In this document: positions 1-28,617 of the stretch, piece by piece | Layout: each line of letters starts with the position of its first letter | How positions within the stretch are numbered: the stretch's first letter is position 1 | Origin: an uncultured Clostridia bacterium | GTDB taxonomy: Bacteria > Bacillota > Clostridia > Christensenellales > Pumilibacteraceae | Length of the DNA: 42,403 nt | Assembly (NCBI GenBank): GCA_947175335.1 | Contig: CAMWMF010000002.1 | Location: forward strand, 111,969-154,371 | Direction of reading: 5' to 3' | The notes under the pieces: generated by a model | Told to the model about the DNA's origin: nothing | What the model saw: only the letters and a program-made list of their open reading frames with translations | Databases searched by the model: none | Program-made: the position numbers and the translations under genes

Positions 1-3000
1 AACGACATGTTTATGCCCTTGTCCACCGCCAAAAAATCAAAATCGTCGTCATCGGCGTCGATACGCGCCATGCACAGGCTTTCGGCGCGAACGGCGTTGC
101 AATCGTATATCTCGTTTTCCGCGTCGATAAAATTCTTGATAGCAAGCTCGGCAGCCTTGCCCAGTCCGTTGCGAGCGTTGCCCATAGTCGATATTTTGCG
201 GTCTATAACGAGCGCAAGATAGGAATGGACAAACAGATCGACAAACCTTTCGGGCCCAACCTCTACCCTGCCGTCCTCTATGGGCGTGAAAAACATATCA
301 AGCGGCAAAGCGTTTTTGCCATGAATAATATTGTCGTAGCCGAGCGCGGCGGCCGCCATCGATCTGTCCGTCGCTTGCGCTATTAATATCTTGCTGTTGT
401 CGGGCGTGACATGCCACGGCGCTGCGGCATAGGCGTTTACAAAATACTTGCCACCGAAGTCTTTCAGCTTGCTTACCGCCGTCGCCACGTTGGCGACAAG
501 CGTTTTTTCGCCCTGTAATACCGACACAAATTTTTCGGTCTTTTGCGCGTCGCAATTAAACTGCGGCGAATGGTAAATGCGAAGCAGCGCCGACAGCGAA
601 TGAACCTGCAATAACATGTTGGGCGCTTCCGCTATACCGCACCTACCGCACATTGCGGACAGCGCAACGTTCAGCTCGGACTGCGCGCGCACAAGCTCGA
701 CCGCCGACACAAAGCTGTCTATTACGTAATCGTCTGGCGTTTTTACAAAGCCTTTGGTATCGGCGATAATAGCGGCGGCGGTCTTGCATTCCGACACAAA
801 CTCGCGCATATCCACGCCGAGCGCCGCGCTATATTTTGCGACAGCGAGTATACATTCAGTTTGCTCGGCGGTCAATGCGTTAAGCCCGACAACGTGCGCA
901 AGCACGCCGCTGAGCCCGTCTATCCTGCCGTCGCATTCGGCTATACGGCTGTAAGATACTGCCGTAGCCGCCAATTCTTTTAAAGTAATATCGGTGCGTG
1001 AACACGCGGCGCGTAATTTCTTTTCCGCCGATTTCGCCTTAAAGTCAAACAGCCCGACGGAAGGCTTATCCCCACTCGCGTACGGCATTAGCGCGGCGCA
1101 TGCTTTTAACAGCTGCATATCGTTAAGCTTGGCTTTGTCGAACACAAAAAGCACTTCGGCGGCAAGCGTATCGCGCTCGGTTTTGAGCTCGTAAACGTTG
1201 TTTACCGTTTGAGTAAACTTTGCCGCCGCTTGATCGGTCATTCCGCCGACCAAAAACAACTCGCTGTTATTTGCCACCGTATTCACTACGGAAAGCTGTA
1301 AGCCACGCACCGTCTTTATATCTGACAGGCGCGTAAAGCAGTCGCTTACGGCGCTGCCCGTAAATATAAACTTATCGGCATCCGTCGCCGAAAGCTTGGC
1401 CTTTTCATAATTATCGGCAAGCATTGTCAGCAGCTCGCCGTCGCTCTTTTTAAGCCCTGTAACCGCCTTGACTATATCCTCGCCCGCAATAGCGTTCGGA
1501 AGCGCCGCGTCGTGCAAATCTCCGTACGTGCAGTCGCTCCACGAAATATCGGGATATTGCTTTTCCAGCCGTTCCGTTACTCCGTTTATTTCCGCCATAA
1601 CTGCGGCGACAGATTTTAGCGCGACAATAGCGCCCTCGATATCCGATTTGTCACTGACCCCGTACCACGGACTGAGCGACACCTTGCCGCCCTGCATCAG
1701 CCGCTCGTAGTATGCAGCGCACTCCTTTACGCCAAGCAAAAGCTTGTTGTAGTCCTCGCGGGAAATCGAAGCCGCAGCCCCGCCGTCGGTAAATTCTATC
1801 ACCGGCAAATCGGCGTCCTTGTAGTACGTATCGAGCGCGTCGTAGTACGAGCCCCACGCTACGTCGTCGCCGAATACCTCAGCTTGATAATCGCCCAGCG
1901 CTATCATAGCCTCGGCCTTGGCGCGGTCGGCACGGCTGTATTTTAGGTCGTACTTGCCGTCGTAAACGTATTCTTTTTTGTTCTTGATAAGCCGCTTAAA
2001 CTCGGCACGCACCTCGGCGGGATTGACAGCGGCGGCTTTTTGCTCCGTTTCGTAATCGAGCAGCATTACGAATTTACGCAAGCGTTCGGGCAGCTTTGCA
2101 TACACCTCGGCAAGCGCCGAAAGCTTTTCGGAAGCGACAAGCACGCTTTTGCCCTGCGCAAGCAAGGTGGAAAGCATGTTGGCTATGGTGAGCGTTTTTC
2201 CCGTCCCGGGCGGGCCCTTTATTATAAGCGACCGTCCCGCCGCAACCTTGCTTATAATCTTATCCTGCACGCTGTCGGTGGGAAGCACCGGGCGGGTAGC
2301 GACCTCGCCGTCGTCCTCGCGCGGAAGCGGTGCACCGCCTCCGAACACGCTCTGTACAAGCGGGTGCGCGTAAATCTTTTGCTTGTTGCGCCGCACGTCG
2401 TAGTACATGCAAATATCGCTGTGGTTGTACTGCGCAATCGTAAGTATATCCTTGTCAAACGACATACTGCCGCCGAGCGCCGAAACAAATTCGCTTACGC
2501 GTTCCATATATTCCGAGCCGTCGCCTAATTTTTCCAAATCTATGGCGTCGTCAAAGTTTTGGCCCACACCGTTGGGGTGCGGAAAGTTTGCACAAACACT
2601 TTCGGAAAGCTCGTCCCGCATACGCGCAATTAGGCACGGATTAAAGTACGCGTCATCATCCACAAACTCTATTTCCACATTGCTTGTGTTGGTGCCGCGC
2701 ACCAGGCGTATGGGGAAAATGAGCAGCGGCGAATTTACGTTGCGAACTCCGTCGCCGTGCGCCACCGACCACGACAAAAGGCCCACGCCCAAAAACAGCG
2801 GGTTGTTGCCCTTTAAGTCGAGCGCGTTGTATGCGGCGGTTATAAACTTATCAAGTGCGTCGGCTTTTTTTACGCCCGCCAAATCCGCCCAATCCCACTT
2901 TTCGGTGAGCGAGCCGCTGACGGTAGCCTTTAACAATGCGCTGTCACCGAGAACAGTCTTGTTGGACGGCTTGCCGCGGCGGGCGCGGATAACGTTAAGC

Positions 3001-3149
3001 ATAGAGGCGCTGTTATTTCCGCTATCGCAAAACAGGCGGTACGCCTTGTCCGATCCGCCCTCGCCCATCACGCCCACGTCGATCAGCCTGTTGCCGCGAA
3101 CGTCGTCGGTGTGAAGAAGTCCCTTGATAAATTCGTCCAAAAATTCCAT
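1..3149 (-). CDS. SF1 helicase with DUF4011-like N-terminus, partial (3' end beyond left edge)
   Basis: This open frame runs from an ATG at 3149 to the left edge without a stop; I spot-checked it at several places, and about 1049 residues are visible. The N-terminal 290 residues follow the pattern of DUF4011-type helicases: a stretch reading NPLFLGVGLLSW, then PLLIFPIRLVRG and a DDDAYFNPCL-like segment. A perfect Walker A, GPPGTGKT, follows at residues 312-319, preceded by a hydrophobic strand (SLIIK). The next 700 residues are mostly helical, and the DExx motif and helicase domain 2 must lie outside the window. The family is superfamily-1, UPF1/DNA2-like, and probably acts on nucleic acid using ATP. 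The start has only a weak AAGG site and lies 31 bp after the metallopeptidase gene, so it is the last visible member of the operon. Its exact role is unknown. Confidence 0.8.
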   Translation of the reverse strand, partial: MEFLDEFIKGLLHTDDVRGNRLIDVGVMGEGGSDKAYRLFCDSGNNSASMLNVIRARRGKPSNKTVLGDSALLKATVSGSLTEKWDWADLAGVKKADALDKFITAAYNALDLKGNNPLFLGVGLLSWSVAHGDGVRNVNSPLLIFPIRLVRGTNTSNVEIEFVDDDAYFNPCLIARMRDELSESVCANFPHPNGVGQNFDDAIDLEKLGDGSEYMERVSEFVSALGGSMSFDKDILTIAQYNHSDICMYYDVRRNKQKIYAHPLVQSVFGGGAPLPREDDGEVATRPVLPTDSVQDKIISKVAAGRSLIIKGPPGTGKTLTIANMLSTLLAQGKSVLVASEKLSALAEVYAKLPERLRKFVMLLDYETEQKAAAVNPAEVRAEFKRLIKNKKEYVYDGKYDLKYSRADRAKAEAMIALGDYQAEVFGDDVAWGSYYDALDTYYKDADLPVIEFTDGGAAASISREDYNKLLLGVKECAAYYERLMQGGKVSLSPWYGVSDKSDIEGAIVALKSVAAVMAEINGVTERLEKQYPDISWSDCTYGDLHDAALPNAIAGEDIVKAVTGLKKSDGELLTMLADNYEKAKLSATDADKFIFTGSAVSDCFTRLSDIKTVRGLQLSVVNTVANNSELFLVGGMTDQAAAKFTQTVNNVYELKTERDTLAAEVLFVFDKAKLNDMQLLKACAALMPYASGDKPSVGLFDFKAKSAEKKLRAACSRTDITLKELAATAVSYSRIAECDGRIDGLSGVLAHVVGLNALTAEQTECILAVAKYSAALGVDMREFVSECKTAAAIIADTKGFVKTPDDYVIDSFVSAVELVRAQSELNVALSAMCGRCGIAEAPNMLLQVHSLSALLRIYHSPQFNCDAQKTEKFVSVLQGEKTLVANVATAVSKLKDFGGKYFVNAYAAAPWHVTPDNSKILIAQATDRSMAAAALGYDNIIHGKNALPLDMFFTPIEDGRVEVGPERFVDLFVHSYLALVIDRKISTMGNARNGLGKAAELAIKNFIDAENEIYDCNAVRAESLCMARIDADDDDFDFLAVDKGINMS

Positions 3150-3180
3150 TACAATACCTTATGTTAATATATCACAAATC

Positions 3181-5079
3181 TTAAGTAAAGTCAATACCGT
3201 TCCAGTATTCCTCAAGACCTCTGCGACAGTCTATCTCGAATGCGTAAGCGTCGGCCTCGTAGATGTGCACCTTGTAAATATCCGAGCGGGTGTTGTGGTT
3301 GTAAGCCTTCTCTCGCGTTTCCCGCCACTTGCACGCCCTGCCGTACGTAATGCCCATATTATCGTAATACCACGGCGCCCAATGCCCGCTCATCAGCCGA
3401 GCCTGCAACGCGTGAAAGCTTTCGTGCACTATCGCGTCACGCATCCACGCCACGTCCTGCGCCGAGCTGTACTTGAACACAACGCGCTTGCCGCCGTCGT
3501 AGCACAGCCCGCCCGCCGTACTGTTTTCCGCTTCGTCCACTATTTCCACTAACGGGTCGATAGGCACGCCGAGTACGCGGTATACAAGCCTTACCGCAAA
3601 CGCCGCACGGCTTTGCATTTCCGCGCGGTCGAGCCTGCTCCAAACGGAATAATCGTCCGTGCCCGTGGTGCAATACCGCGCTATCATTCCGCACTTGCCG
3701 AATACGGTGGCGTTGCTTTCCGCAATCCTTTTTACGTTGTCTATATCTATCGCGGGAATACCGTCGTAGTCGAATTCACCCGCGTTAGAAGCGTTTTGCC
3801 CGCCGCCGCGGAAATCGCCCCAGCCGTCGTCAATAAACAGCATCGAGTCTTTGATACGCGCCAAATACTTTTTAGCGACGTCGGCGTTGCCCATTGAAAT
3901 CTTTTTGCCGCGCGTCATCCAGTTAGAGTGATGCTCGGGGCGAACTATTTCGTTAAGCCCGGCAAAGCCCAAAAACGGCATATCCCTGAGCGCCGCACGC
4001 GCCGTGGTGCCGTCCGCCATTTTCAGGGCGACCAGCTCGTCCGCCGCAGCGTCGAAGGACGGCATTGTTATGTATGATTCACTTATATCCAATGCGCTGA
4101 GCTCGTCGTACTGCACCGCCGCCGTCATTCCGTCGTCGTACAGCGCACCGCCCTGCACGTCCGATATAAATACGCGCGTGCCCGCCTTGCCGGCAAGCAT
4201 TGCCGCACGCAAAAGATACGTACGGTTGTCGTCGGGCATCATGTCGACGCCCGCTATAAACACAGCGCACTTTTTGTATTCGGCATAGCAAAATATTTTG
4301 TCTATGTTCTCCCGCGACCCGCCGTCGGCGTTCATGCCAAACTCGTAAATTTCCGTATCGCGCGGCACGGCGTTAGCTGCGTACAGCCGCGCTTCGTCAA
4401 CAAACGGCGTGTTAAGTATAAGCGCGTTGGCCTTGCCGCCCTCGTCGCACTCGGGCGTTGGGAAGTAGTCGCAGTCGCGTAAATTCAACGGCTTTGCGGC
4501 GACAGAGCGTTCCAGCGCTTTGGCGTACGCGCCGCACAAACCCGCCTTCCAGCTTTGCATACTATCCGCTATTTCGTCCGAAAGTGTGGGAAAAACCACG
4601 CCGTCCTCAAACGGCGAGGTTACGCCCGCGCTCATCAATTCATCTATAAGCTCGGTCGCGTTTTGAATAATTTTTTTACCGTTGCACGCAAGCGTATGCT
4701 CGCTACTTGCCTGCGCCGAAATTTCATTTTTGGCGGCTACGTACTTTGAAAACAGCGTTACAAACCTTAACGTGTTTTCCATTGCTGCCGCGCTCTTGTT
4801 GTAGCCTTTCTCTTTTGCTATCGGCAAATTTTGCTCGACGTAGGCGTTTAGCTTGTCTACCAACGAAAGCGAAAAATCGGGCTGTAATGCTTTGAGCCCG
4901 AAAATTTTGCACGCCAACCGCATGCCCAGCGCCTCGGCGTTTGCGCGGTTGCTATCGTTTAGCGCGGGATTTTGCAATAGCTCCTCTATTGCCGCAAGTG
5001 CGCCGTCCAGCGCCGTTATATCCGTCGAGTAAATGTACTCGGTGTTTGCGTCGGTAATAACCTGTTTAAAGCTCTTCAT
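3181..5079 (-). CDS. Putative zincin-type metallopeptidase, 632 aa, operon member
   Basis: The C-terminal 80 residues carry HESFH (552-556), which fits the HExxH zinc-binding and catalytic motif of zincins. It is followed about 50 residues later by EADAYAFE (608-615), which could supply the third ligand, as in gluzincin-like families. There is no signal peptide or membrane segment, so a cytoplasmic protease is expected. The first 130 residues are helical. The middle (about 220-400) alternates hydrophobic strands (CAVFIAGVD, TRVFISD) with helices, as in an alpha/beta domain I do not recognise. The ATG overlaps the stop codon of the coiled-coil gene upstream by 4 bp (ATGA), so translational coupling is likely and the start is well supported. 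The substrate is unknown; a regulatory cleavage of another operon product is conceivable but not shown. Confidence 0.75.
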   Translation of the reverse strand: MKSFKQVITDANTEYIYSTDITALDGALAAIEELLQNPALNDSNRANAEALGMRLACKIFGLKALQPDFSLSLVDKLNAYVEQNLPIAKEKGYNKSAAAMENTLRFVTLFSKYVAAKNEISAQASSEHTLACNGKKIIQNATELIDELMSAGVTSPFEDGVVFPTLSDEIADSMQSWKAGLCGAYAKALERSVAAKPLNLRDCDYFPTPECDEGGKANALILNTPFVDEARLYAANAVPRDTEIYEFGMNADGGSRENIDKIFCYAEYKKCAVFIAGVDMMPDDNRTYLLRAAMLAGKAGTRVFISDVQGGALYDDGMTAAVQYDELSALDISESYITMPSFDAAADELVALKMADGTTARAALRDMPFLGFAGLNEIVRPEHHSNWMTRGKKISMGNADVAKKYLARIKDSMLFIDDGWGDFRGGGQNASNAGEFDYDGIPAIDIDNVKRIAESNATVFGKCGMIARYCTTGTDDYSVWSRLDRAEMQSRAAFAVRLVYRVLGVPIDPLVEIVDEAENSTAGGLCYDGGKRVVFKYSSAQDVAWMRDAIVHESFHALQARLMSGHWAPWYYDNMGITYGRACKWRETREKAYNHNTRSDIYKVHIYEADAYAFEIDCRRGLEEYWNGIDFT

Positions 5080-6602
5080 CTATCGTCGTCCGAAAACAGC
5101 GTACTGCGCTTGACCTTGACCTCGGGCTTTACCTCCTCGGTTTTTTGCGGCTGCTGCTGTGCTTGCAAAATTGCCGCAAGCTCGGGCGAAAGCTCGGAAG
5201 ACACCTGCTCGCGGCTGTTACGCTCGCGCTCTATAATAGCCTGTCTGTCCGTTTCGGGTATAGCCGCACGGCGCCCGCGCACAAGCCCGTCCATTTTGAG
5301 CCTGTCGCCCGACACCGAAAGATTGGTTATACTGTCGTTAATGCCTGCGATAATGCTGTGAATGCTCTCTATGGCGATAGACTGATTTTTGTCGCTAAGC
5401 CTTCCGCCCATCATGTCTATAAGCGCGTTGAAGTCCACGCCGTAAATGATGTCGGACAAAAGCACAAGATCGTTTTTGAACTGACCGAGCACGCCGATAA
5501 CGCTTTCCAGCTCGTTGTATATCGCTTCGCGCTGTTCGAGGCTGGCCTTTAAGTAATCGGGTCCGTTGACCTCGCGCAGAGTGGATACAGTGTAAAGTAA
5601 GTCGTCCTCTTTGGGTTTGAGGCTCTTTATTTTGCGGTCGGCGGTTGCAAGGTCGAACTCGCCGTTTTGGAATGCCGCAACGATATCCGCCTTTTGCTTT
5701 TTAATATCGTCAAGGCCTTTTTCGCACTCGTCTATCTTGTCTTGACGGGCTTTGTCGCGCTCGTCTATCTGCTTACGTATTGCGGCAATGTCCGCCTGTT
5801 CGGTGGCCATCCTGTTCAAAAAGGTGTCCAGCATTTCCAGCGACGCCCTGCCCTCGACAACCGCCGCGAGTGCGTCGTTGCTTTTGAATGCGTGCTGTTC
5901 CTTTACACGCTCCTTGCGCGTTACGCCTACGTTGAGCGCACCCCACGCTTCCACCGCTTCCAGCGCTTTTTTAAGCTTGGCTATCGAGCCCGATTGAAGA
6001 TTGTTGCGCGAGCAGTCCTCTCGCCACACCTTGATTGCGGCAATAGCCTCGTCCGAACGGGCTTGCGCCGTGCGGCTGCTGGTATCGCCTATGTTGTCCA
6101 TAGCCGTCAGCATTTGCTCCAACAACGTGCGGCTTTGCTCCAACAGCTCGAACTGCCGCTCGTTTACGTTGAGTAGGCCCTGTCCGCTACTGCGCAGCTC
6201 GGTCATTGTGTTTACAGCGACAATGCTGGTGTTTATACATTCTTTAAGCGGCTCGGTAACGTTTATCACCGCCTTACGCGCCTGCAATTCCTTTTGAAGC
6301 AAGCCGTCCGCCTTGACCGAATATTTGGTGAGCTTGCCTATTTGCTCGTTACCCAGCTCGGTGAGCGCCACCACTATATCGGAAAGCCCGTCCAGCGCGC
6401 TTTTGCACGATCCGTCAAAGCCGTTGTTTATGCCGTGCACGCACATATCCCACATACCGTTTACTATGCGGTCGCCGAGCTCCTTGGGCCCGTCGAACAT
6501 GGAATGGCCTGTCAAATAGCTGTCAGTAAACTTTTTGTTTAACGACAAGCCGTTTTTGCGCGCTACGTCTTGGATGGATTTTACTTTTTCGATAGTGGTC
6601 AT
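5076..6602 (-). CDS. Coiled-coil protein of unknown function, 508 aa, operon member
   Basis: I do not recognise a family. The protein is soluble, with no signal peptide or membrane helix, and is almost entirely helical. Heptad-like, charged stretches are clearest around residues 255-330, where K, E, D and R alternate with I, L and A, and a Q/P-rich, disordered-looking tail ends in SDDDR. Parts of the architecture recall TelA-like or structural-scaffold proteins, but the similarity is too weak to name. The start ATG at 6602 has a good Shine-Dalgarno site (AGGAG, 5 bp spacing). Its 3' end overlaps the metallopeptidase gene by 4 bp, so the two products are probably made in a fixed ratio and may interact. 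It lies just after the 160-bp palindrome at 6616-6775, so its expression may be tuned separately from the upstream half of the operon. Confidence 0.75.
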   Translation of the reverse strand: MTTIEKVKSIQDVARKNGLSLNKKFTDSYLTGHSMFDGPKELGDRIVNGMWDMCVHGINNGFDGSCKSALDGLSDIVVALTELGNEQIGKLTKYSVKADGLLQKELQARKAVINVTEPLKECINTSIVAVNTMTELRSSGQGLLNVNERQFELLEQSRTLLEQMLTAMDNIGDTSSRTAQARSDEAIAAIKVWREDCSRNNLQSGSIAKLKKALEAVEAWGALNVGVTRKERVKEQHAFKSNDALAAVVEGRASLEMLDTFLNRMATEQADIAAIRKQIDERDKARQDKIDECEKGLDDIKKQKADIVAAFQNGEFDLATADRKIKSLKPKEDDLLYTVSTLREVNGPDYLKASLEQREAIYNELESVIGVLGQFKNDLVLLSDIIYGVDFNALIDMMGGRLSDKNQSIAIESIHSIIAGINDSITNLSVSGDRLKMDGLVRGRRAAIPETDRQAIIERERNSREQVSSELSPELAAILQAQQQPQKTEEVKPEVKVKRSTLFSDDDR

Positions 6603-6615
6603 GGTAACTCCTATT

Positions 6616-6775
6616 AGAGATGATGATTAAGTGACGCGAGTAAGATTGCGTTAGCGATTTGTGGGAGACGAACACAATAGGTTGCGCTCGTAGCAGCGCT
6701 ACGTGCGCGTTCTATTGTGGCACGTATCGCACAAATCGACAGCAAGATTACCGCACGAACATAATCAGCATCTCT
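6616..6775. repeat. 160-bp imperfect palindrome between two operon genes
   Basis: Left and right halves are inverted copies of each other along almost the whole length, centred near 6695 on a short dyad (GTAGC/GCTAC). Matching blocks include AGAGATG with CATCTCT at the outer ends, CGATTTGTG with CACAAATCG, CACAATAG with CTATTGTG, and GCGC pairs near the centre. The right end reaches the stop codon of the upstream gene, and the left end is about 13 bp from the start codon of the next. Transcribed, it would fold into one long hairpin. It could be a MITE-like insertion, an RNase III processing site, or an attenuator that lowers expression of the downstream genes. No long T-tract follows on the minus strand, so it is not a classic terminator. 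Confidence 0.8.
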
Positions 6776-7878
6776 TACTGTTTTGCTACTTTATTGATAA
6801 GATCGTCGGTAGCGTGAGCGAACGATTCCAACCGCGAGTTTTTGTACATAAGCACGTCGTCCTCGCTGAACACATAGTCCGTTTGAACGGCCGCCCCGCT
6901 CATGGCGTCGATAATGCGCTTTACGCCGCTGTACTCGCCGAAGCCGGTGTTTTTGCGCAAGGTCTTGCCTATGCGCTTGCACTTGCTTTCCGATATGCCG
7001 TGTTCGCCGCCGCCGTTAAAGAAGTACAGGTAGTAGGCGCTGTCCGGCTCGATGTCGCCCACGTCCTCCGCCGTCTTGATAGTGCGGAACTCACCGTTGT
7101 CGGCATCAAATAATACTATAAGCAATTTTCGCGCAAAAGTCAATAGTTTGCTCTCCCCGTTTTTTGCGCCGGTGCGAATTGCACTGAGCTCGGCGTAGTC
7201 GCCGCGCTCCAAACGCATAATGCCGAACAGCGGCGAACGCTCCTTGGTAAGGCACGACTGCAATACAGACAGCACGTGCAAGGCGCGGCTTTCGCCGACA
7301 ACGCGCTCGGCGCCGTCGTCGTCGGGTACTGTTAAACCCTTGGCGATTATCTTTTCGCGCTCGTCGTGGTAGTTAAGATCGCCCACTCGCCTAAACGATT
7401 CGGGAAGCTTTTTGAGTAGCTCCAAGTAATGCTTGGCGGCTGCGCAGCGCAGCTTGATACAGCTTTCGGCGTAGTCGCGGTCGGCAGGGCGCTCCTCCAT
7501 CTCCGGCATACTGCTCCACACCAGCTTGTAATATTCGTACGCTATGCGGAAGCTTTCCGTAACGTCGGCGGTGATATAGCCGTGCTCGTAGTAGAACCCC
7601 AGCCTAATAAGCGCCTTGGGATTGCCCATGCGCGCAGCCGTGCGGCAGTATTCTATAGCTACGGCAAGATTGCGCTCGTACTCCGATAAAGCCTGTTGGC
7701 TTTTAAGCGCACGCAAATAGCACAGCTCGGACAGCTTAAACGTTTCGTCGTTTTCCTTGTTTACCTTGACGGCTATAGACTTTATTCCCACAACCGTCTT
7801 GCACGACGGGCACGCCCAGTCGCCGTTGTACAGCTCGAGCGGCTTGACTATATTTCTGTTGCAATTGGTACAAATCAT
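6775..7878 (-). CDS. Zinc-ribbon and Sel1/TPR-like repeat protein, 367 aa, operon member
   Basis: The N-terminus is a compact zinc ribbon with two CxxC knuckles (C3/C6 and C23/C26). Around residues 60-115 there is a Sel1-like helical repeat: AIEYCRTAARMGNPKALIRL followed by GFYYEHG. Such repeats usually build protein-protein docking surfaces. The C-terminal part is mixed alpha/beta and unassigned. It has no signal peptide, so a cytoplasmic adaptor is the likeliest role. The ATG at 7878 has an excellent ribosome site (GGAGG, about 8 bp spacing) and starts 3 bp after the stop codon of the membrane-receptor gene, which ties the two together. Its stop codon touches the palindrome at 6616-6775. 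Similar zinc ribbons in two other operon proteins suggest shared assembly, but that is inference. Confidence 0.75.
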   Translation of the reverse strand: MICTNCNRNIVKPLELYNGDWACPSCKTVVGIKSIAVKVNKENDETFKLSELCYLRALKSQQALSEYERNLAVAIEYCRTAARMGNPKALIRLGFYYEHGYITADVTESFRIAYEYYKLVWSSMPEMEERPADRDYAESCIKLRCAAAKHYLELLKKLPESFRRVGDLNYHDEREKIIAKGLTVPDDDGAERVVGESRALHVLSVLQSCLTKERSPLFGIMRLERGDYAELSAIRTGAKNGESKLLTFARKLLIVLFDADNGEFRTIKTAEDVGDIEPDSAYYLYFFNGGGEHGISESKCKRIGKTLRKNTGFGEYSGVKRIIDAMSGAAVQTDYVFSEDDVLMYKNSRLESFAHATDDLINKVAKQ

Positions 7879-7881
7879 AAT

Positions 7882-10800: not shown

Positions 10801-11127
10801 GGTGTCGGTAAGTACTACCGCACTACCGTCGACAAATTTTACAAGCCAAACTATCAGCAATACTATTGTTACTGCTATATATACAAAAAACAACTTTTGC
10901 GCGTACTTAAACCGTTGGTTGGACAGTATAACACCGACTAAGTACAGTACGTCTACTGCTGTCATAAAAAACGGTAGCCACCAGTACGAGCTTGCCGCGC
11001 CGAACACCCACAGCGCAACGCACGCCGCAAAATCGGCTATCGGCAGTAGCGCCAATCCGATTATCAACCATATTTTATGCCTGCCCGAAAGCATTTCCGT
11101 TACGGGCGAATGTGAAACGTTTTTCAT
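7882..11127 (-). CDS. Five-helix membrane protein with extracellular Ig-like (MBG-type) repeats, 1081 aa
   Basis: Residues 1-170 hold about five hydrophobic helices (roughly 18-40, 48-66, 76-98, 112-130 and 142-166). They are followed by a short beta-rich segment resembling BspA-type repeats (CTVTDIVYGRGDSVVIPYEF, then GVSANIFTYAYVKNVTL). A unique region spans about 290-500. From about residue 510 to the end come six or more Ig-like modules with recurring Y-[ND]-G, ATA and NYT signatures, typical of MBG/YDG-type bacterial surface domains. The odd helix count and surface-type repeats suggest that the large C-terminal part is outside the cell. It is the only membrane protein among soluble helicase, Hsp70-like and zinc-ribbon genes, so a sensor or anchor role is attractive. 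The start ATG follows GGGAGG with long spacing; the gene begins 19 bp after its upstream neighbour. Confidence 0.8.
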   Translation of the reverse strand: MKNVSHSPVTEMLSGRHKIWLIIGLALLPIADFAACVALWVFGAASSYWWLPFFMTAVDVLYLVGVILSNQRFKYAQKLFFVYIAVTIVLLIVWLVKFVDGSAVVLTDTVEAYCGLLHVAGILAVGISYLYASRRLRLGRHIQLVFAIIFSAVVLLAFVVTYGVFVISDGFFGQGHGNLPLVYAYTENNECTVTDIVYGRGDSVVIPYEFNGRKVTGVSANIFTYAYVKNVTLNCDPDVELCADMHSEAFNTNVNIYVDKKDVDTIKQKLYTRDSGNYSRYRHELGNRVQPIGLDNDEVYITFNYDRDAYDTARGKIIPTWFGKKGDTFRLSDIDGVDYAEHSDADSDDDLYYCYNHVGNGGGYMMSELKDGDKALDGITVDQSRGIAVSFQKIYKVFAGESNDTKYKTDEYFPFATVNGVKQDYKLTVMDKADELLDSFDRGEAFTRTMHYTLFNGNVPREFTSLSALLREGYSQVTIAPDWELTKPQVTLTSVTAADDIIYGDDFILDAAVTHPIGDVQIEYEWYDDTQRIGYDRILQANAESTGMHTYTAIVKVSAPEVTSCISGNAAEIKVNVNKRPLTITWEHKSIETMGGEAQVYGTESVYDGNQRGIQPKAQNVVNNDYIFLMGYTGGHAGTFTEKATLTNNVIAAKYYIAEGETYTYTIHPYPVQLTWDNDTEFEYDGNVHGPTAHALDLSGEELEILYSGRQTDAGENYTATAILANADYTINESSVKSKGFKITPTQVSVTWGRTTLTYNGDPQAPEATALGVGGVKVNLDISGKQTNANKFGEDDVTTTYTATAASANKNYTLDPTTTSTEFTISPYVLVYIQWANSVVTYNGQSQLPTATVTGAKNQNVPLTVIIEDHPLGAVDAGQYIATATVADPNYTIYDGPLFALDDEIQSTLTAAQWQFYILPMEVRAQWGNTTLTYNGEWQVPSATAKGVNGEDLPLTVTGALKIGNGTANAEFTAKQNNYTLTDAKRTFTIQRKVLNISIDNVTVEYGQKPNYTYSITGVVDGEYVTVTLKVNYLADSNGNIPVGEYTITATLSISDSTSYSLNIVQSGKLTVTAAAESTEE

Positions 11128-11146
11128 TGCCGCTTTTTACCCTCCC

Positions 11147-12784
11147 TCACTTTACCTTTTTGGGCGGTCTGATATAGCCGTAATCGCGCGCGTCCAGCTT
11201 GTTGAACACAAATCTCTCGTTGCCCAGCTCGAAGATGATAATATTGCTGTCTTCCTTACAGCATTTTTTGTCCTTGATATGCTTGAACCTTGTATGCAGG
11301 GACAGCATTTTGCCGTACTTGCGGTACAGCTTTTTGCCCTCGTCGGTGACCTCGGTGTCGCCGCAAAGCCTGCAATAACCGTTTTTGCCGGTATGCTCGC
11401 CGTAAGTCCTGCCGCAGCACTTGCACTTTTTCACCTTGCCGTCGGTGAGCACAAACGCTTGCTCGTCCAGGTTGAGCGCCGAAGTCAAGCTGCCGCCGTC
11501 CGTGCCCGAAAATATATTGTAGTACACTACTTCGGGATAAGGACAGCCCTTGCACTTGCGGTAAACCTTGCCGTCGCCGTCCGTGTACTCCACGGCCTGG
11601 CTCGAACATATAAGCCGCGAGCAATCGCTGTTGCGCATATTGTCCTTGCACGCTATCTTAAACAAGTGCCGCGATAATAGCGCCGAATTCTTGATCATTG
11701 CTATATCCTCGTCGGCGAGGCCGAGATTGCGCTCCGAAAAATCCAGCTCGTAGCCGCCGTCAAACTCGTCTTGATCGAACAGCACGTTGTTGTTTTCCAC
11801 CAAAAGCACGCCGTCCTTACTGCAATTTGTGCAGTATAGGCTTATGCTGTTATTGAGCCCGACAACCAGCTTTAACACGTTTTTGCCGCCTACGCTTACC
11901 GCATAGGAAAAGTTTTGCCATTCCACGTGCGATATGCCAAGCACCGTTACGTGCGTACATTCCAGCTCCTTTTCCTCGCTTGTCGCAAGTAGCTTTAACA
12001 TTTTTTCTATCTTGGGCAAGTAAGCGGGATTGAACATTATGTAATCGGCGCATGCCGCGTCCTCGAAAAGACTGCCGGCACGGTTGAGTACCGAATTTAC
12101 AAGCTGACCGTCAACAAGCTCCCCGCCGTCGCTCTGTCCGTCGTCGGACGGCACCGCAGCGTTTATATAATCGTCTATGCCCTTGGCTTCTTCGCGTTTT
12201 ATAGGAACAAACTTGCCGTCGCGCCCTACTCGAAAGTACAGCTTGCCCAAGAGCGGCTCGGACTCGGCGCCGCCGTTTATTTCCAAACGCATCGATACGG
12301 CATAATAGTTTTCGGCCTCGGGCGTATACCTTTCGGACACGGCAAACGGCGCGTCGATAACACGCTTTAAAAACAAGTCCGAAAATTTTTTGATAACGCT
12401 TTCCACCGCGCCGCCGACGGCCGCCGCACGGCTGTCCGCGCTTTGGCGGAATTCTATAAGCGAGTAGTATTTGTGGTAGTCCGCGCCGACGTCTGCGATA
12501 AGCTGCTCCCAGTCCGCGCTGCTGCTGTCAAAGCTTTTGCCGCGAAGTCCCGCAAACCAGCTTGCGCCGTCCTTGTCGAACCTGAGCTCGTTTTCCTCGC
12601 CGCCCCTTGCGCCGTTTAAGCCGTGCTCGTCCTCGCAGTACACAAATACATTGGTCGCCGTTACTATTTCGGTATCGGTGACCCGCTTAATATTAACCTT
12701 GTCGGACAAAAATCCTTTTTTATACAGACTGCAAATGCTTTTGAATTCCTTTTCGTATTCGCAGCCTACGTTAATTCTTGCCAT
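11147..12784 (-). CDS. Cys-rich (zinc-ribbon) protein of unknown function, 545 aa
   Basis: No known family is recognised. The N-terminal 300 residues are an alpha/beta region without motifs. The C-terminal half carries several Cys pairs suited to zinc binding: C318/C321, C379/C388/C393, C411/C414, and C454/C457 with C471/C474 (CKCCGRTYGEH...CRLC). The last pair looks like a true zinc ribbon. It is soluble with no signal peptide. The ATG at 12784 has an AAGGAG site 6 bp upstream and begins 3 bp after the stop of the SNF2 helicase gene. The shared Cys-rich character of this protein and the tail of the helicase suggests that they bind the same partner or nucleic acid, but nothing in the sequence proves this. 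Confidence 0.75.
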   Translation of the reverse strand: MARINVGCEYEKEFKSICSLYKKGFLSDKVNIKRVTDTEIVTATNVFVYCEDEHGLNGARGGEENELRFDKDGASWFAGLRGKSFDSSSADWEQLIADVGADYHKYYSLIEFRQSADSRAAAVGGAVESVIKKFSDLFLKRVIDAPFAVSERYTPEAENYYAVSMRLEINGGAESEPLLGKLYFRVGRDGKFVPIKREEAKGIDDYINAAVPSDDGQSDGGELVDGQLVNSVLNRAGSLFEDAACADYIMFNPAYLPKIEKMLKLLATSEEKELECTHVTVLGISHVEWQNFSYAVSVGGKNVLKLVVGLNNSISLYCTNCSKDGVLLVENNNVLFDQDEFDGGYELDFSERNLGLADEDIAMIKNSALLSRHLFKIACKDNMRNSDCSRLICSSQAVEYTDGDGKVYRKCKGCPYPEVVYYNIFSGTDGGSLTSALNLDEQAFVLTDGKVKKCKCCGRTYGEHTGKNGYCRLCGDTEVTDEGKKLYRKYGKMLSLHTRFKHIKDKKCCKEDSNIIIFELGNERFVFNKLDARDYGYIRPPKKVK

Positions 12785-12787
12785 GGT

Positions 12788-15718
12788 CTACTCCTTTTCG
12801 CCGTCGTCGCGTTCGAGAATGCGTCTTACGTCGGTGACGATTTCCGCTTGCTCGCCGAGGTTTTGGCAAAATCCCTCGCCGCCGTCATGATCGAACTTCC
12901 ACAGCTCGGATATGAATGTGGCAAAGGTGCGCGCTACGACAGGCCTAAGCTTGCCGTGGTTGCGGCGGGTCGAACAGCCGGGCATCGGGCAGTCCGCCTC
13001 CCACTTGTCGTTAAACTCCAATGCGTACGGCTTGGGGCTGCATCCTGCGTAATCGCAGTCCGAGCACCGTCCGCCCTCGCCCGCTTCGCCGATAATTTGC
13101 TCCTTGGGCAAGCCTGCGATTTTACATTTGTCCCAGCAATCCTCGTTGTCGCACATTGCGCAAATGCGCATAAGCTCGACGTCCGACACGTTGCTGACGT
13201 CTTTGAAACGTTTAAGCGCCGGGCACTTGCCGTACATATGCCCGCCCTTGTTGAACCGCTTGCAGTGCGATATTGCGCAAATCTTGCGGCAGTATATCGA
13301 CCTGTCGCCCTTTTCGCCCGAATTGCACATCCTGCCGCGTTCGCCGTTTTCCACGTTGGAAAAACACATATATCCGTCGGACACCGAGCGCGTCAGCACC
13401 GTGCCGCAGCTGTCGCACTTAAAGTCGTATACTGTTATCTCGCACATTTCCGTGCCGTTGCCGTAGGCGTCTATGCACTGCGTTTCGGCGCGGCATACAA
13501 GCGCGTCCTTCTTTTTGCGCTTTTCGTCGTATGCCTCCTTGGACATCAAAACGACCCTGCCGCACGCGTTGCACCTTAGCGCCACCATTTGGTCGGAGTT
13601 GCTGCCCGCAAGTATTGTCGCGTCACCCGTGTTGCCCGAAAGCAAGCCTATCTCGGCAAAGTACGCAAGCGCAAAGCCTTCCAGCTTGCTCATGTCAGCA
13701 AGCGAGTACACCGTTACGTCGTTCTTTTGCCCGAGGCGGAATATACGGCCGATACGCTGATCCATAGCAAGCGGATCGTACGTTACTTGGTAGTTTATTA
13801 TTATGCTCGATTCTTGCAGGTTGGCGCCCTCGGTGTACTTGGCGTCCTTTACTATAAGTATGGCGTCCGACCGCTTTTCCGAATTGAATTCGCGTTCCAC
13901 CGCGTGCACGTCTGCGGCGTCGTCGCCCACTATTATCCTGTCTTTAAGCTCGGGGTCGCGCAACAGTGCATCGCACACCTCGTCGTATATGCGTTCTGAT
14001 TTTCCGAGGTTGTAATCGAAAAACACCAGTACGCGTTTGTCCTTGTGCTGCTTTAATATGCGCACCGCGGTTTGGAACTTGCTGTCCTTTACGCTTTCGC
14101 TTTGTAGCACTGGCAAAAAATACGTTTGCTTGGCGACCGCGCCGTGCGTGTTGCGTAGGCGGTCGGCATAGTACGTTATATAACCGCTTTTTGTGTGTAT
14201 GGATTTTGTTTGCGGGTCGCTTGCCGCCAGCTTGTTGAGTATACTGTTGAGCACGTGCGAATACGCCTGCTCCACCGAAAGATTGCCGCGCAGGTTCTTT
14301 ACGTAGTCTATAAGCGACAGCTCCTCCGACCCCACCTTGACAACCGGTTGCCCGCCTTCCGCCACGTGCGAAAAGTCGACAGTAACCTTCTTTTCGTTAA
14401 GTCCGGTTATGCTTACCGTTTCGGGTATGCTCGACATCGGATAGAAAAAGTAGTTATGTACCGATTTGCGTTTGGAAAGCTTGTTAGGCTGGCGTATCAT
14501 TATCGAGCGCAGCACGCCGTTGTGATAGGCGTCCGATATGCGCTTTAACACGTCGTCTTTAAGCGTGACGGTGAGTCCGGTAATTTTGTCCGTCGACACC
14601 TTTTTGCCGCCGTACTTTGCGGCGTTTAAAAAGTCGTCTATATACTGCGCCCTGTCGTACGGCGATTTGTCGTTAAAGTCACTCACCTTGCCCGTTTCGC
14701 GCAGGTATGAGCCAAGCTCGTCTAAGTACCGCTCCATAACCACCGAATACTTTACCCTGCGGATAAAGTCGGTAATATTGGTCGCGCCGTAGCACACCGT
14801 GTCCTTGTAATATTGCTTTTCCTCTATGTACTGCGTAGTGCGCTCGCTGTCGTCCTTTTCGTCGAAGTCGGACGGATTGCCGCCCTTGCAACGCACAAAG
14901 TACCACAAGCGAAACATGTTTTCGAGATTGCCCGAGTGCGGCGTTGCGGTAAGCAGCAGGCAGTACGTTGCGCCCGCACGCTTTTTGGTCTGCATCATCT
15001 CGGACAGCATGCGCATTGCGCCGGCATACTTGCCCGCGTCCTCGCTGAAATGGTGCGCCTCGTCAACTACAACCACGTCCACCAAAAAGTCGGGGCTGTA
15101 CCGCCACTGCGCAAATATGTCTACGTCCACAATTATGGGACGCTTGGGGCGAATAAACTTGCCCTGCTTGCTAACGCCGACAGCAGCCAGCACGTCTTGA
15201 AGCGTGGGATATTCTCCGTCGGACTTTTGCACCTTGTACAGGACGTCCTTGCCCATGCCGAACTTGTTTTCCAGCACGTCCACCCAACTGTTAAGCACTT
15301 GGTCGGGCGTGACGACAATAAGCGATTTCATTTTGCCGCGCACGGCCAGCTCGCTGAGTATTACGCCCGCTTCAAACGTTTTGCCACTGCCCACGACGTC
15401 GGCAAGCAAGCCGAACCCGCGCAGGTCGCGCAAAAACTTTTCAGCCGCCGATTGCTGGTGCGACAGTATTACGCTGCCGCCGGTGCCGTGTATATCCGCG
15501 TCCACGCCTATGCCGTACTCCGCCTTGCCCTTGCGCCTTTTGTAGTGAGAGCAGTCTATTAAAAGCTCGTGAAAATCGTCGTGGCTGTCCAACGCCTCCA
15601 CGCTTTGCTGGGCCTCCGCAACCTGCTTTGTAAACTTCTTTTTGTATTGCAGGTTGCTGCGCTGTATGTCGGCGGAAAACGCCGTGTCTGTAAATGTAAG
15701 CTTATAATTTTCGTCCAT
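12788..15718 (-). CDS. SNF2-family DEAH helicase/translocase with Cys-rich C-terminal tail, 976 aa
   Basis: This is a superfamily-2, SNF2/RapA-like ATPase. A Q-motif-like HQQSAAEKFLRD lies at 87-98. Walker A is DVVGSGKT (107-114), the Walker B box is VVDEAHHF with DEAH at 219-222, and motif III is LTATPHSGN (256-264). The second RecA domain has RVLVFFDYN (562-570), EGANLQ (630-635) and the arginine-finger motif QRIGRIFRLGQ (654-664). Such enzymes translocate on double-stranded DNA. Residues 716-920 are exceptional: about 25 Cys in CxxC-like pairs that could form several zinc ribbons. The start ATG has an AGGAG site about 8 bp away. The gene starts 28 bp after the Hsp70-like gene and ends 3 bp before the next one. 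Nucleosome remodelling is excluded in a bacterium; a role on nucleic acid or nucleoprotein in a conflict system is an inference. Confidence 0.88.
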   Translation of the reverse strand: MDENYKLTFTDTAFSADIQRSNLQYKKKFTKQVAEAQQSVEALDSHDDFHELLIDCSHYKRRKGKAEYGIGVDADIHGTGGSVILSHQQSAAEKFLRDLRGFGLLADVVGSGKTFEAGVILSELAVRGKMKSLIVVTPDQVLNSWVDVLENKFGMGKDVLYKVQKSDGEYPTLQDVLAAVGVSKQGKFIRPKRPIIVDVDIFAQWRYSPDFLVDVVVVDEAHHFSEDAGKYAGAMRMLSEMMQTKKRAGATYCLLLTATPHSGNLENMFRLWYFVRCKGGNPSDFDEKDDSERTTQYIEEKQYYKDTVCYGATNITDFIRRVKYSVVMERYLDELGSYLRETGKVSDFNDKSPYDRAQYIDDFLNAAKYGGKKVSTDKITGLTVTLKDDVLKRISDAYHNGVLRSIMIRQPNKLSKRKSVHNYFFYPMSSIPETVSITGLNEKKVTVDFSHVAEGGQPVVKVGSEELSLIDYVKNLRGNLSVEQAYSHVLNSILNKLAASDPQTKSIHTKSGYITYYADRLRNTHGAVAKQTYFLPVLQSESVKDSKFQTAVRILKQHKDKRVLVFFDYNLGKSERIYDEVCDALLRDPELKDRIIVGDDAADVHAVEREFNSEKRSDAILIVKDAKYTEGANLQESSIIINYQVTYDPLAMDQRIGRIFRLGQKNDVTVYSLADMSKLEGFALAYFAEIGLLSGNTGDATILAGSNSDQMVALRCNACGRVVLMSKEAYDEKRKKKDALVCRAETQCIDAYGNGTEMCEITVYDFKCDSCGTVLTRSVSDGYMCFSNVENGERGRMCNSGEKGDRSIYCRKICAISHCKRFNKGGHMYGKCPALKRFKDVSNVSDVELMRICAMCDNEDCWDKCKIAGLPKEQIIGEAGEGGRCSDCDYAGCSPKPYALEFNDKWEADCPMPGCSTRRNHGKLRPVVARTFATFISELWKFDHDGGEGFCQNLGEQAEIVTDVRRILERDDGEKE

Positions 15719-15746
15719 TTCTCACTCTCCTTATCCGCTTCTCTCA

Positions 15747-17747
15747 CTAAGTCAACTGCGTTTCTATGTTGAATGCAAAGTCGATTTCACGCTTTTGCAC
15801 CGTTTCGCGTCCGCTGTATTTGCTATCGCCCAGATACTCTATTACCGTAAACTCGCCGCCGTTGCGCTTTTTGTCGTTGCGTGCGTACGCTTTGGCGTAG
15901 CCGTCGCCGTCGATTTCCACGCCCAGCTGCAAATACACTTCTTTGATTATGCGCACCCGCTTGCCGTTGTAGTAGTATTTGGCACGGCTGCCGTTATTCA
16001 TATTGTCTATGCTGCCGTTAAGTACGCGCAAGCCTATTTCGCGTTGAAGCTTGTTAAGCATAGTCTTGTTATCGGTGTCCACAACCAACAGGTTTTCGCC
16101 GCCCGACCGTGCGTACGTTATAAGCGGCGCTTTGCGCGAATGCTCTATATCCTGCGCCGAGTAGAACGTGCTCATAATGTGCATTGCCGCCGACTGCTCG
16201 GAATCGTCGCCCGTCGTTATACCGCCCTTGTCGCCGTCCTTGGGTGTGTAGTACGTAGCGCCGCTTTGCGGGATCCTCGTGCCCTTGTTTACAAGCACGC
16301 GGAAAAACGGTATTACGTTATTGCCGTTGCCTACAACGCGGAACAGTCGCACGCCGTACGTAAGCGCGAGCACCATGTCGATAGTCATGCCGCACATCGA
16401 CGCTACCGCGCAACCGAGCGACGGCGCGTACAGCGCATCCTCATGCCCCAGAATGTTGAATCCGTCGTTCTTAACGCCAACGTATTCGCTGTCGTCCTTT
16501 TCAAATGTGCATACCTTTACGCCGAGCGGTTCTATAAACCTACGTATATACTTCATAAGACCGTACGTTTCCACCGGCCCGCCGGTAATGAAAATCCTTT
16601 TCACGTCGGTGTTTATAGGTCTTATAAGCTCGTCGGTTATGTAGTTGACTATCTTGCGCGCAACGCCGTTGTTGTCCGTAATGCCCACGCACTTTTCAAA
16701 CTGCTCGCGCGTTATCGTCCGCTGTATCAGCAAATCCCGCGACGCCGAAATGGGCACGCCGTAACGGAATGCACGACTGTCGTATATGGGCATGCCAAGC
16801 ACCATTTTTGCCGACTTGATGTCTTTGACAAACAAATACTGCTTGGTGTTCAGCGCCGATTCGGAAAGGTGTCCTTCCTGCCCGCTGGACGGTCTGCCCA
16901 TCGTTTCACGCCCCGACATTTGACCTTCTATGTACTGTGCCACCGCGTCATCTATGTCCTTGCCGCCTATGGGCGCGGGCTCATTGTGGCCGTCGACGCC
17001 GTCCACCGATATGCCGCTGCCCGAAAAGGTAACCTTAACAAGCGAAATGCGCTCCTCGCCGATATTGAATATTATCGACTTATCGTCCTTTGCCATTCGC
17101 CCCGAATACTTGGCGTACGCGCACAACGCCTTTGCCATACTCATTACCGATTGCGGCTTGGTGTCGAACGCAAGCGTTACCAGCCGTTTCAGCTCGTTTA
17201 TGTACGCGTTGTCCGAGAACATGGGATACACAAGGCTGGGCGTTATTTCCGCCGTAGCATTCGACTTTTTTAACAGCTTTTCCAGCCGATTTTCCACCAC
17301 GCCATGCACGTACTTGAAAAACATTTCGCATACCTCGGACGGAGTTTGCGGCGCGGTGAATGTTCTGTCCATGCGCACCGCCTCGTCCATATCGTCGGTC
17401 AAACGAACACGCTGCGGAAAGTAGAATTTGGGAAACCTGGTCTTTTTAAAGTAGTAATTGCGGTTGCTCTTTTGCGTTGCGGTGTTTGCCGCCGGCTGCA
17501 ACAACCGAAGCAAATCGCAAATTTTGACAACGGTAATAAACGGCTTGTCGCCGACCGAGTTCACCTCGTCGCCGAACAGCCACTTTTGTTCATCGACGTC
17601 GTAGTACGCCACCGACGGCACGGCAGTCATAGTAAGCGGGTCGCCCACTATCTTGCCCGTGTGTTCGTCGCCGTCGTTAAACGCATACGCGATTTTGATT
17701 GTGTCGCTCCCGAGATCGAGAGCTATGTGTACCGATTGTTTTGACAT
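15747..17747 (-). CDS. Hsp70/actin-superfamily ATPase (DnaK-like), 666 aa, first gene of the operon
   Basis: Phosphate-1 is IALDLGSDTIKIAYAF (8-23), phosphate-2 is SIIFNIGEERISL (224-236), the GGKDIDDAVAQYI segment (261-273) matches the Hsp70 lobe II GG-D-D motif, and the adenosine motif is IFITGGPV (385-392). VNKGTRIP (486-493) resembles the start of the Hsp70 substrate-binding beta domain. The last 150 residues look beta-rich and there is no DnaK-type EEVD-like tail. It is therefore a divergent stand-alone Hsp70 homologue, not the housekeeping dnaK, and no grpE or dnaJ is nearby. The usual Asp of phosphate-2 is Asn228 here, which could alter ATP hydrolysis. A perfect promoter lies about 40 bp upstream of the start. 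The ATG has only a distant AAGGGA site, so initiation may be modest. Its role is probably regulated binding of partner proteins in the operon. Confidence 0.88.
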   Translation of the reverse strand: MSKQSVHIALDLGSDTIKIAYAFNDGDEHTGKIVGDPLTMTAVPSVAYYDVDEQKWLFGDEVNSVGDKPFITVVKICDLLRLLQPAANTATQKSNRNYYFKKTRFPKFYFPQRVRLTDDMDEAVRMDRTFTAPQTPSEVCEMFFKYVHGVVENRLEKLLKKSNATAEITPSLVYPMFSDNAYINELKRLVTLAFDTKPQSVMSMAKALCAYAKYSGRMAKDDKSIIFNIGEERISLVKVTFSGSGISVDGVDGHNEPAPIGGKDIDDAVAQYIEGQMSGRETMGRPSSGQEGHLSESALNTKQYLFVKDIKSAKMVLGMPIYDSRAFRYGVPISASRDLLIQRTITREQFEKCVGITDNNGVARKIVNYITDELIRPINTDVKRIFITGGPVETYGLMKYIRRFIEPLGVKVCTFEKDDSEYVGVKNDGFNILGHEDALYAPSLGCAVASMCGMTIDMVLALTYGVRLFRVVGNGNNVIPFFRVLVNKGTRIPQSGATYYTPKDGDKGGITTGDDSEQSAAMHIMSTFYSAQDIEHSRKAPLITYARSGGENLLVVDTDNKTMLNKLQREIGLRVLNGSIDNMNNGSRAKYYYNGKRVRIIKEVYLQLGVEIDGDGYAKAYARNDKKRNGGEFTVIEYLGDSKYSGRETVQKREIDFAFNIETQLT

Positions 17748-17794
17748 TGCCGCTTATATTTCCCTTGTCGTCAGACTATAATACGTCTACTTAA

Positions 17795-17823
17795 ATTATA
17801 TCACCGCTATACTTGTATGTCAA
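17795..17823 (-). promoter_or_regulatory. Consensus sigma-A type promoter of the eight-gene operon
   Basis: On the minus strand, TTGACA (17818-17823) is followed after exactly 17 bp by TATAAT (17795-17800). Both boxes are perfect, so the basal promoter is predicted to be strong. Transcription should begin near 17788, giving a leader of about 40 nt. A small dyad, AGAC (17773-17776) and GTCT (17785-17788), covers the first 15 transcribed bases and could be an operator or a 5' hairpin. Confidence 0.8.
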
Positions 17824-22072: not shown

Positions 22073-22081
22073 AACACAACC

Positions 22082-22110
22082 ATTGTACAATATTATTTAA
22101 AGAATTTCAA
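22082..22110 (-). promoter_or_regulatory. Promoter of the EEP-domain gene (leaderless or nearly so)
   Basis: TTGAAA (22105-22110) and TACAAT (22082-22087) are 17 bp apart on the minus strand. The ATG at 22072 begins 9 bp after the -10 box, which leaves at most about 3 nt of leader. Confidence 0.65.
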
Positions 22111-22134
22111 TACCAGAGCGAAAAAATTTTTTGC

Positions 22135-22180: not shown

Positions 22181-22276
22181 AAATGCCGTAATTTGCGTTG
22201 TACACGGAATTTTGCCCGCAATGCTTGTTTATACCGCCCTGCTAGCTTTACTCGCATACACACACTGTAAATGTAT

Positions 22277-28616: not shown

Positions 28617-28617
28617 C

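Follow-up and report, generated by a model that had tools for sequence, protein, structure and literature searches.

The window analysed here is the whole stretch of 42,403 nucleotides at positions 111,969 to 154,371 of contig CAMWMF010000002.1 (G000:C2:111969-154371), from an uncultured Clostridia bacterium whose genome comprises 1.96 Mb in 52 contigs. Its left part holds most of an operon of ten genes, designated A to J, which spans ~21 kb from a promoter at its start to a terminator-like hairpin at its end. A preliminary description, made from the sequence of the window, had reported eight open reading frames (ORFs) on one strand, tight gaps, a perfect promoter and a palindromic gap of 172 bp. 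All of these are present, and the eight ORFs lie on the minus strand at the positions it gave. The eight-gene operon that it proposed consists of genuine genes, but the full operon has ten, I and J being located beyond the left edge. The leftward extension that it recommended completed the SF1 helicase H to 1,503 amino acids and revealed these two further genes on the same strand. Genes were called from ORF length and profiles, with no trained gene finder.

Transcription of the operon starts at a sigma-70-type promoter (17795..17823, minus strand), in which TTGACA and TATAAT are separated by 17 bp and TG precedes the -10 element. The perfect promoter string has two exact matches in the window against a mean of 0.00 in 100 shuffles. 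Twelve regions were compared in detail, the window's own and those of eleven relatives, several of them on contigs that end early. The promoter scores 12 of 12 with a 17-base spacer in the window, G015, G004, G019, G010 and G006, and 12 of 12 with a spacer of 16 in G014; the remaining five regions score 8 to 11 of 12. In transcription order, the intergenic gaps from A to H measure 28, 3, 19, 3, 172, -4 and 31 bp, followed in the contig DNA left of the window by 36 bp between H and I and 17 bp between I and J. The terminator-like element is a 14-pair hairpin with a T-rich tail 3' of J (L005:2601-2631), and the ORF next to it has the opposite orientation.

Gene A (15747..17747; all ten genes are on the minus strand) encodes a protein of 666 amino acids assigned to the Hsp70 superfamily of ATPases by predicted structure and Foldseek. 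Its AlphaFold2 model (predicted local distance difference test, pLDDT, 85.4; predicted template modelling score, pTM, 0.84; built from 41 sequences) contains an actin-like nucleotide-binding domain and a beta-rich C-terminal domain. The best PDB match is BiP/GRP78 (E 7.6e-23), and the 50 listed of 683 matches at E<=0.001 are Hsp70/Hsp110-type proteins or their complexes. G389-G390, the adenosine GG motif of the Hsp70 fold, is invariant across the 41 members. At the sequence level the link between A and Hsp70 is not significant (best E 0.19); according to the model, gene A has the Hsp70 nucleotide-binding fold. In its usual form, Hsp70 combines a glycine-rich phosphate-2 loop with a helical lid. 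The phosphate-2 loop of A reads G-E-E in most members, and the model has no helical lid, its chain terminating in strands. Chaperone-type hydrolysis by A is therefore uncertain.

Gene B (12788..15718, 976 amino acids) encodes a helicase-like ATPase of the SNF2/RapA/DrmD type, as judged from family matches and conserved motor motifs: in ten aligned members Walker A, DEAH and the last-motif arginines are invariant. Its C-terminal region is cysteine-rich. The closest models are DrmD, DpdE, BrxH and RapA, with 117 bits against a cut-off of 610 for DrmD (NF038317, NCBIfam) and 75.6 bits against a model cut-off of 576 bits for RapA. The following gene C (11147..12784) specifies a Cys protein of 545 amino acids and no known family, in which eleven Cys/His residues are invariant in 39 of 39 aligned members and likely form zinc clusters.

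Gene D (7882..11127, 1081 amino acids) encodes a membrane-anchored protein with a large ectodomain and MBG/immunoglobulin (Ig)-like repeats, as seen from its hydrophobic segments and MBG matches. Twelve of the 27 aligned D proteins were inspected, and eleven of these have five hydrophobic segments while that of L096 has four. The charged loops fit an N-in, C-out topology, and the ectodomain is presumably extracellular. MBG_2 was matched in 15 and MBG_3 in 12 of the 27 members, the window's own D matching MBG_3 weakly. Gene E (6775..7878, 367 amino acids) carries, in its N-terminal part, the CxxC...CxxC motif of a zinc ribbon and also has a region with weak similarity to Sel1. Gene F (5076..6602, 508 amino acids) is predicted to encode a coiled-coil protein, which in some relatives ends in a tail motif: I-[DNT]-D-I, resembling that of I described below, was found in 6 of 52 loci (L056, L060, L062, L069, L111 and L113). 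An assignment of F to TelA was dropped, with no TelA match among 34 F members, and homology between F and I is unsupported (profile-comparison probability 10%). Profile searches matched F and G in the PDB mostly to helical proteins of a generic or designed kind, and these matches were set aside.

Genes G and H form an optional module. G (3181..5079, 632 amino acids) is a predicted zinc metallopeptidase, whose HExxH motif is kept without exception in the 19 members aligned; further downstream, most copies that are complete there show the pattern E-x-[DE]-A. In G041, two tandem and strongly diverged G copies were observed (L031:428-2359 and 2372-4252). H occupies 1..3149 of the window, where its edge-cut ORF (3-3149) has 1049 amino acids; the full gene (L005:4607-9118) ends ~1.4 kb past the left edge and encodes, by family matches, a DUF4011/SF1 helicase. 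SF1 motifs are present in the members displayed in full. The full-length protein matches PDC-S37 with 370 bits (PADLOC, E 7.5e-111) in two stretches, the best at 936-1500, and Hhe with 162 bits (PADLOC); the edge-cut protein matches PDC-S37 at residues 94-502 and reaches 133 of 1500 bits for ProA and 73 of 2000 bits for Hhe against the NCBIfam cut-offs. The C-terminal end of H resembles the MTES_1575 nuclease fold (E 0.0084). At the D and ExK positions of the MTES_1575 fold, seven aligned cassette members have other residues, and this nuclease-like end appears to have lost its key residues.

The last two genes lie outside the window. Gene I (L005:3806-4570) encodes a protein of 254 amino acids whose predicted structure (pLDDT 70.9, pTM 0.44) is helical and shows a disordered tail besides three long helices; no significant Foldseek match was obtained (best E 0.55, all above 0.5). 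Near the C-terminal end, 16 of 17 I tails, about nine of them non-redundant, fit the pattern I-[DNST]-[DN]-I. Gene J (L005:2637-3788, 383 amino acids) encodes a Cdc48-like AAA ATPase with the motor motifs of that family; its best PDB matches are p97/VCP (E 5.6e-66), and it reaches 118 bits with the IetA models of PADLOC. Its match to Vps4_C is weak (E 0.0018, below the cut-off of that model), and a reading of its N-terminus as TelA was rejected (E 0.087). No Pfam match was found for five of the ten proteins, namely A, C, F and G at E 0.1 and I at E 1. The domain assignments of the preliminary description mostly stand: SNF2, DUF4011/SF1, HExxH, zinc-binding and MBG, and also Hsp70-like, which is carried by predicted structure.

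The gene set recurs together in other genomes, a check that the preliminary description had proposed. Of 61 genomes, counting that of the window and those of 60 relatives, 15 yielded gene A, one of these (G057) only as a fragment (E 5e-4). By profiles, A to E occur in the same order in 12 of the 12 regions compared, F in 11, G, H and I in 8 each and J in 9; the operon of G006 is complete once a longer stretch of its contig is covered. Compared with the window proteins (tblastn), identity is ~41-96% within the main clade of the genus and drops to 23-47% elsewhere. Departures from the full set were also seen. For instance, F is followed by I in G019, where G and H are missing; in G030, A to F are succeeded by an extra coiled coil, then by a short gene for a helical protein and one for an AAA protein; and G038 has A to E only, with hrcA, grpE and dnaK, read by eye, following at some distance.

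A scan of 84,980 species genomes (one per species) with the SNF2 alignment gave 76 loci; it used two short peptides, so that very divergent cassettes would escape. These are mostly records of uncultured Clostridia, many with titles that suggest animal guts and some not, and they include records titled Borkfalkia, Christensenella, Alloclostridium and Protoclostridium. Five are titled Bacilli, Acholeplasmatales or Erysipelotrichaceae. Judged from record titles, most relatives are metagenome-assembled, and cassettes on short contigs, chiefly those of the five Bacilli-type records, may be misbinned. With profiles of the ten families, and with each step counted only in loci long enough for it, A is followed by B in 73 of 75 loci, B by C in 73 of 73, C by D in 72 of 72, D by E in 58 of 59, E by F in 55 of 58 and I by J in 15 of 16. 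Within each locus the assigned ORFs, 492 in total, share one strand. The order is thus kept across families with few exceptions, for example L113, where F-I-J stands ahead of A, and L084, where an SF1 gene does. Some of the 76 loci are closely related, 63 Cys proteins being left after a simple redundancy filter. Among the 47 loci testable after F, G follows in 28, I directly in 17 and neither in 2. The usual core therefore consists of eight genes, A to F with I and J, and G-H is a detachable module. An extra ORF of ~1,348 amino acids lies just upstream of A in L058:3413-7456 and L061:3607-7650.

The operon, probably acquired horizontally, is a lineage-restricted unit that is gained and lost as a whole. 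Gene A was detected at E 1e-10 or better in 22 of 297 species sampled evenly from the order, in 11 of 125 genera; 15 of these matches are strong, 5 intermediate and 2 fragments. In a class sample of 391 species, A matched only the window's genome and one other of the same order, and in a phylum sample of 398 species only the window's own genome. The Cys protein was found in the same two genomes of the class sample, with in addition a weak match in G553 (short, with two in-frame stops, E 3.4e-7).

Within the genus, the insertion site is marked by the phosphoglycerate kinase gene pgk, a flanking gene outside the system (18603..19907, minus strand). Pgk and the next conserved gene were each located in 19 of 20 genus genomes, and one of the 20 members could not be assessed at this site. 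Ten of the 20 species carry the cassette, eight beside pgk, of which six have both flanking genes on one contig and two lie at contig ends, and two elsewhere. The cassette-free pgk sites comprise six with 454-653 bp between the flanking genes, three with 921-1,249 bp and two with other inserts. In each of the six short ones lies a single small gene, resembling a membrane protein by eye, which is also beside pgk in the window. The other inserts, of 4-5 kb, occupy the site in L135 (G017) and L136 (G001), and the pgk side may be a small insertion hotspot. In G014 and G018, where the cassette lies away from pgk, the SNF2 protein is 45% identical to that of the window; that of a copy from another family is 49% identical. 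The G014 and G018 proteins are thus no closer than the other-family copy, which argues for separate acquisitions.

The ratio of nonsynonymous to synonymous substitution rates (dN/dS) ranges from 0.035 to 0.33 over five pairs, two of which cover eight genes, indicating purifying selection; dS approaches or exceeds 1 in the G000-G010 pair. J has the lowest ratio in every pair that includes it, and D evolves fastest of the set (0.26-0.33). No match of the Cys protein was found in plasmids or phages. The SNF2 protein had no plasmid match at 1e-20 in a search of the plasmid collection only, and a scan of viral contigs yielded nine weak partial SNF2 matches and nothing more. A 21-kb cassette whose order is kept across families, yet whose presence varies within a genus, is probably valuable as a unit.

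The operon is filed here as a new kind of gene set because the whole set fits the definition of no named system among those considered. No named system matched it in Pfam, PADLOC or, for the in-window proteins only, NCBIfam, and no description of it was found in the open-access literature, supplements not covered; the preliminary description, which knew of no system with this full set, is borne out to this extent. DISARM, Dpd and BREX likewise encode, within operons of several genes, a large motor of the SNF2 family that is extended at its C-terminus (DrmD, DpdE and BrxH, respectively), yet B scores far under the curated cut-offs. DISARM comprises the helicase drmA, drmB (DUF1998), drmC (PLD) and a methyltransferase, and the core genes of BREX include PglZ and BrxC/PglY. 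Apart from the helicase-type models matched by B, the matches listed for the ten proteins include no methyltransferase, DUF1998, PLD nuclease or PglZ, and the only BREX families among them are the helicase-type BrxHI and BrxHII, to gene B. Hhe and PDC-S37 are single-gene systems and Mokosh is a one- or two-gene system. Homology to PDC-S37 over much of the protein was found for gene H alone; H is kin to these DUF4011 helicases, yet here it belongs to an operon of ten genes, in which it is optional, and it ends in a nuclease-like region that is apparently inactive.

IetS is a subtilase and the partner of the AAA protein IetA. The operon resembles IetAS in that J is IetA-like and the larger cassette pairs an AAA ATPase with a peptidase; it differs in that G is an HExxH protein absent from many copies, and that eight further genes are present. 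No subtilase is among the matches listed for the ten proteins. J is a classic AAA protein in its likeness to Cdc48/p97. ESCRT-III proteins carry a C-terminal motif for Vps4, and here too gene I, with its conserved C-terminal motif, precedes an AAA gene. Family and fold searches were unsupportive of I and J as an ESCRT-III/Vps4 pair, which is left as an analogy: no Snf7 or MIT match is among the 25 of 28 families listed for J or the 25 of 27 listed for 18 I proteins. CoCoNuTs are multi-gene systems with Hsp70-like nucleotide-binding and substrate-binding domains, zinc ribbons, coiled coils and inactivated PD-(D/E)xK folds (PMC11090510). The operon has similar ingredients, namely an Hsp70-like unit, a zinc ribbon, a coiled coil and an apparently inactivated nuclease-like end. 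Nevertheless, no McrB-type GTPase, McrC, HEPN or TerY-P of CoCoNuT/McrBC is among the matches listed for the ten proteins. Nucleoside triphosphate (NTP)-dependent conflict systems use HSP70 chaperones and peptidases as switch components (PMC7159879); no vWA, TRAFAC-type GTPase or tubulin is among the operon matches listed.

Taken as a whole, the ten-gene operon is tentatively proposed, with somewhat less than even confidence, to make one membrane-linked, NTP-driven machine, triggered at the envelope, with protection from incoming DNA or phage as its most likely purpose. D would sense something at the surface of the cell. Under the membrane, a scaffold with zinc-ribbon and coiled-coil elements may be built from C, E and F; the Hsp70-like A and the Cdc48-like J would load this scaffold or pull it apart. 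J could dock on the IDDI-type tails of I and sometimes of F. Remodelling of the scaffold would free or position the SNF2 motor B for translocation on nucleic acid, its presumed target. Where the cassette includes the G-H module, the metallopeptidase and the SF1 helicase might be added as effectors. The similar tails of I and F offer the best clue to the wiring, as two helical proteins that end alike may bind one partner. J suggests itself as this partner, since its gene follows that of I in 15 of 16 places.

A protective role against foreign DNA or phage is favoured because of the gain-and-loss pattern, the two motors of SNF2 and SF1 type and what H and J match in the libraries; the next candidate is a general response to envelope stress. 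A narrower version of the proposal holds that an immune or surveillance machine of a previously unknown kind is at work, in which the Ig-like receptor drives a Cdc48/Hsp70 switch through the shared IDDI-type tail and unleashes a nuclease-free SNF2 translocase on incoming nucleic acid, with the peptidase-SF1 module as an option; in this form it is possible, and we regard it as doubtful. Several points weigh against a defence machine. D diverges over its whole length, ectodomain included, unlike a classic arms-race receptor. None of the ten proteins was recognised as an enzyme whose nuclease site is intact. The IetA score of J (118 bits) about equals its score with the general AAA model (116.7 bits), and PADLOC holds defence families only, which biases best matches. 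The tail patterns of I and F were defined after the tails had been inspected. In a coarse test, defence enrichment beside the cassette is not clear: no PADLOC family hits more than 2 of 101 upstream neighbours (25 of 55 families listed), and the neighbours look like ordinary chromosomal genes. The preliminary description had proposed a check for variable or defence islands; a defence-island location is so far unsupported by this test.

The rivals explain parts of the same evidence. The operon could make and position an MBG adhesin, D, with the Hsp70 and AAA proteins as factors for folding or assembly and I as a membrane-shaping or membrane-binding protein. D, the sole clearly exposed product, belongs to the core; the best structural neighbours of I, none significant, are of eisosome/BAR type, with Vipp1 at rank 24; and the listed neighbours of the cassette are not defence islands. 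However, neither an SNF2 motor among the best-conserved core proteins nor an SF1 helicase in G-H suits adhesin assembly, and the resemblance of I is no evidence of homology (all Foldseek E >0.5, pTM 0.44), so that such a surface or envelope machine seems rather unlikely. It is more unlikely still that the operon is a regulator of transcription or stress, in which a RapA-like B would remodel RNA polymerase or stalled complexes on an envelope signal from D relayed by the Hsp70/AAA switch. The RapA match of B speaks for it, as does the consensus promoter kept in the genus, which suggests steady expression; B nevertheless falls far short of the RapA cut-off given above, and gain and loss as a unit, with divergent replacement copies in the genus, would be unusual for a core regulator.

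Divergence from a known defence system of several genes (DISARM, BREX, Dpd, Mokosh or CoCoNuT), of which the operon would be a member, would account for the closeness of B to the DrmD, BrxH and DpdE models, of H to PDC-S37, Hhe and Mko, and for the Hsp70-like units, zinc ribbons and coiled coils that CoCoNuTs also use (PMC11090510). It is nonetheless improbable, with B and the in-window H under all curated NCBIfam cut-offs and no other signature gene of these five systems among the matches listed for the ten proteins. That most relatives are metagenome-assembled genomes might raise the thought of chance adjacency or an assembly artefact, for which the probability is negligible: chance is refuted by synteny, with the same order in 76 loci from many assemblies and down to 23-47% identity. 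If the defence purpose is right, the operon would represent a type that is linked to the surface, switched by chaperones and devoid of any recognised nuclease; otherwise it would encode a hitherto unknown machine, for the envelope or for nucleic acid, in uncultured bacteria. Its four ATPase proteins and its clear cassette make the proposal directly testable by cloning and pull-down.

The neighbour comparison used 101 of the 201 upstream ORFs called in 53 of the 76 loci. These 101, from 51 loci, were picked by hand, mostly as the two or three nearest per locus; genus copies that were nearly identical were passed over, as were many ORFs of very small size and a few of very large size, including L058:3413-7456 and L061:3607-7650. 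For comparison, 101 control ORFs were taken from the 280 called in 17 distant stretches belonging to nine genomes, with ORFs >1,400 amino acids omitted. Both sets came from a simple longest-ORF method and may contain spurious ORFs. The flank ORFs match 55 PADLOC families against 12 for the controls, a coarse count in which distinct proteins were not counted, and one that speaks against the reading of the neighbours as ordinary genes; no PADLOC family matches more than 3 controls (all 12 families listed). Methyltransferase models make up 19 of the 25 listed flank families, each matched by a single member, and a methyltransferase-like motif is present in two flank proteins and in no control protein. 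One or two methyltransferases probably explain many of the flank family matches. The Pfam families of the flanks (25 of 94 listed) are mainly metabolic, transport, translation and surface families.

The gap of 172 bp between E and F is filled by a palindromic interspersed repeat (6603..6774) that lies outside the system. Its sequence matches 9 places in the genome, itself counted, and is very stable as RNA (z -7.6). The E-F gap is merely 10, 9 and 16 bp in G015, G004 and G010, respectively, and 237 bp in the near-identical G012. A role of the palindrome as operon regulator was rejected, as it is an interspersed repeat.

Elsewhere in the window, 23S rRNA, tRNA-Asn and 5S rRNA genes are grouped on the minus strand (28658-31949). 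No 16S rRNA was found in the window above the Rfam threshold, although the sequence upstream of the 23S gene is not missing and contains an ORF (32383-33741). Either the 16S and 23S genes are unlinked in this genome or the assembly is broken there. The GC fraction is ~0.38-0.50 at 22001-34000 and 0.50-0.55 over the operon. A second perfect promoter, scoring 12 of 12, lies at 37382-37410, upstream of an ORF of 1138 amino acids (33909-37325, minus strand).

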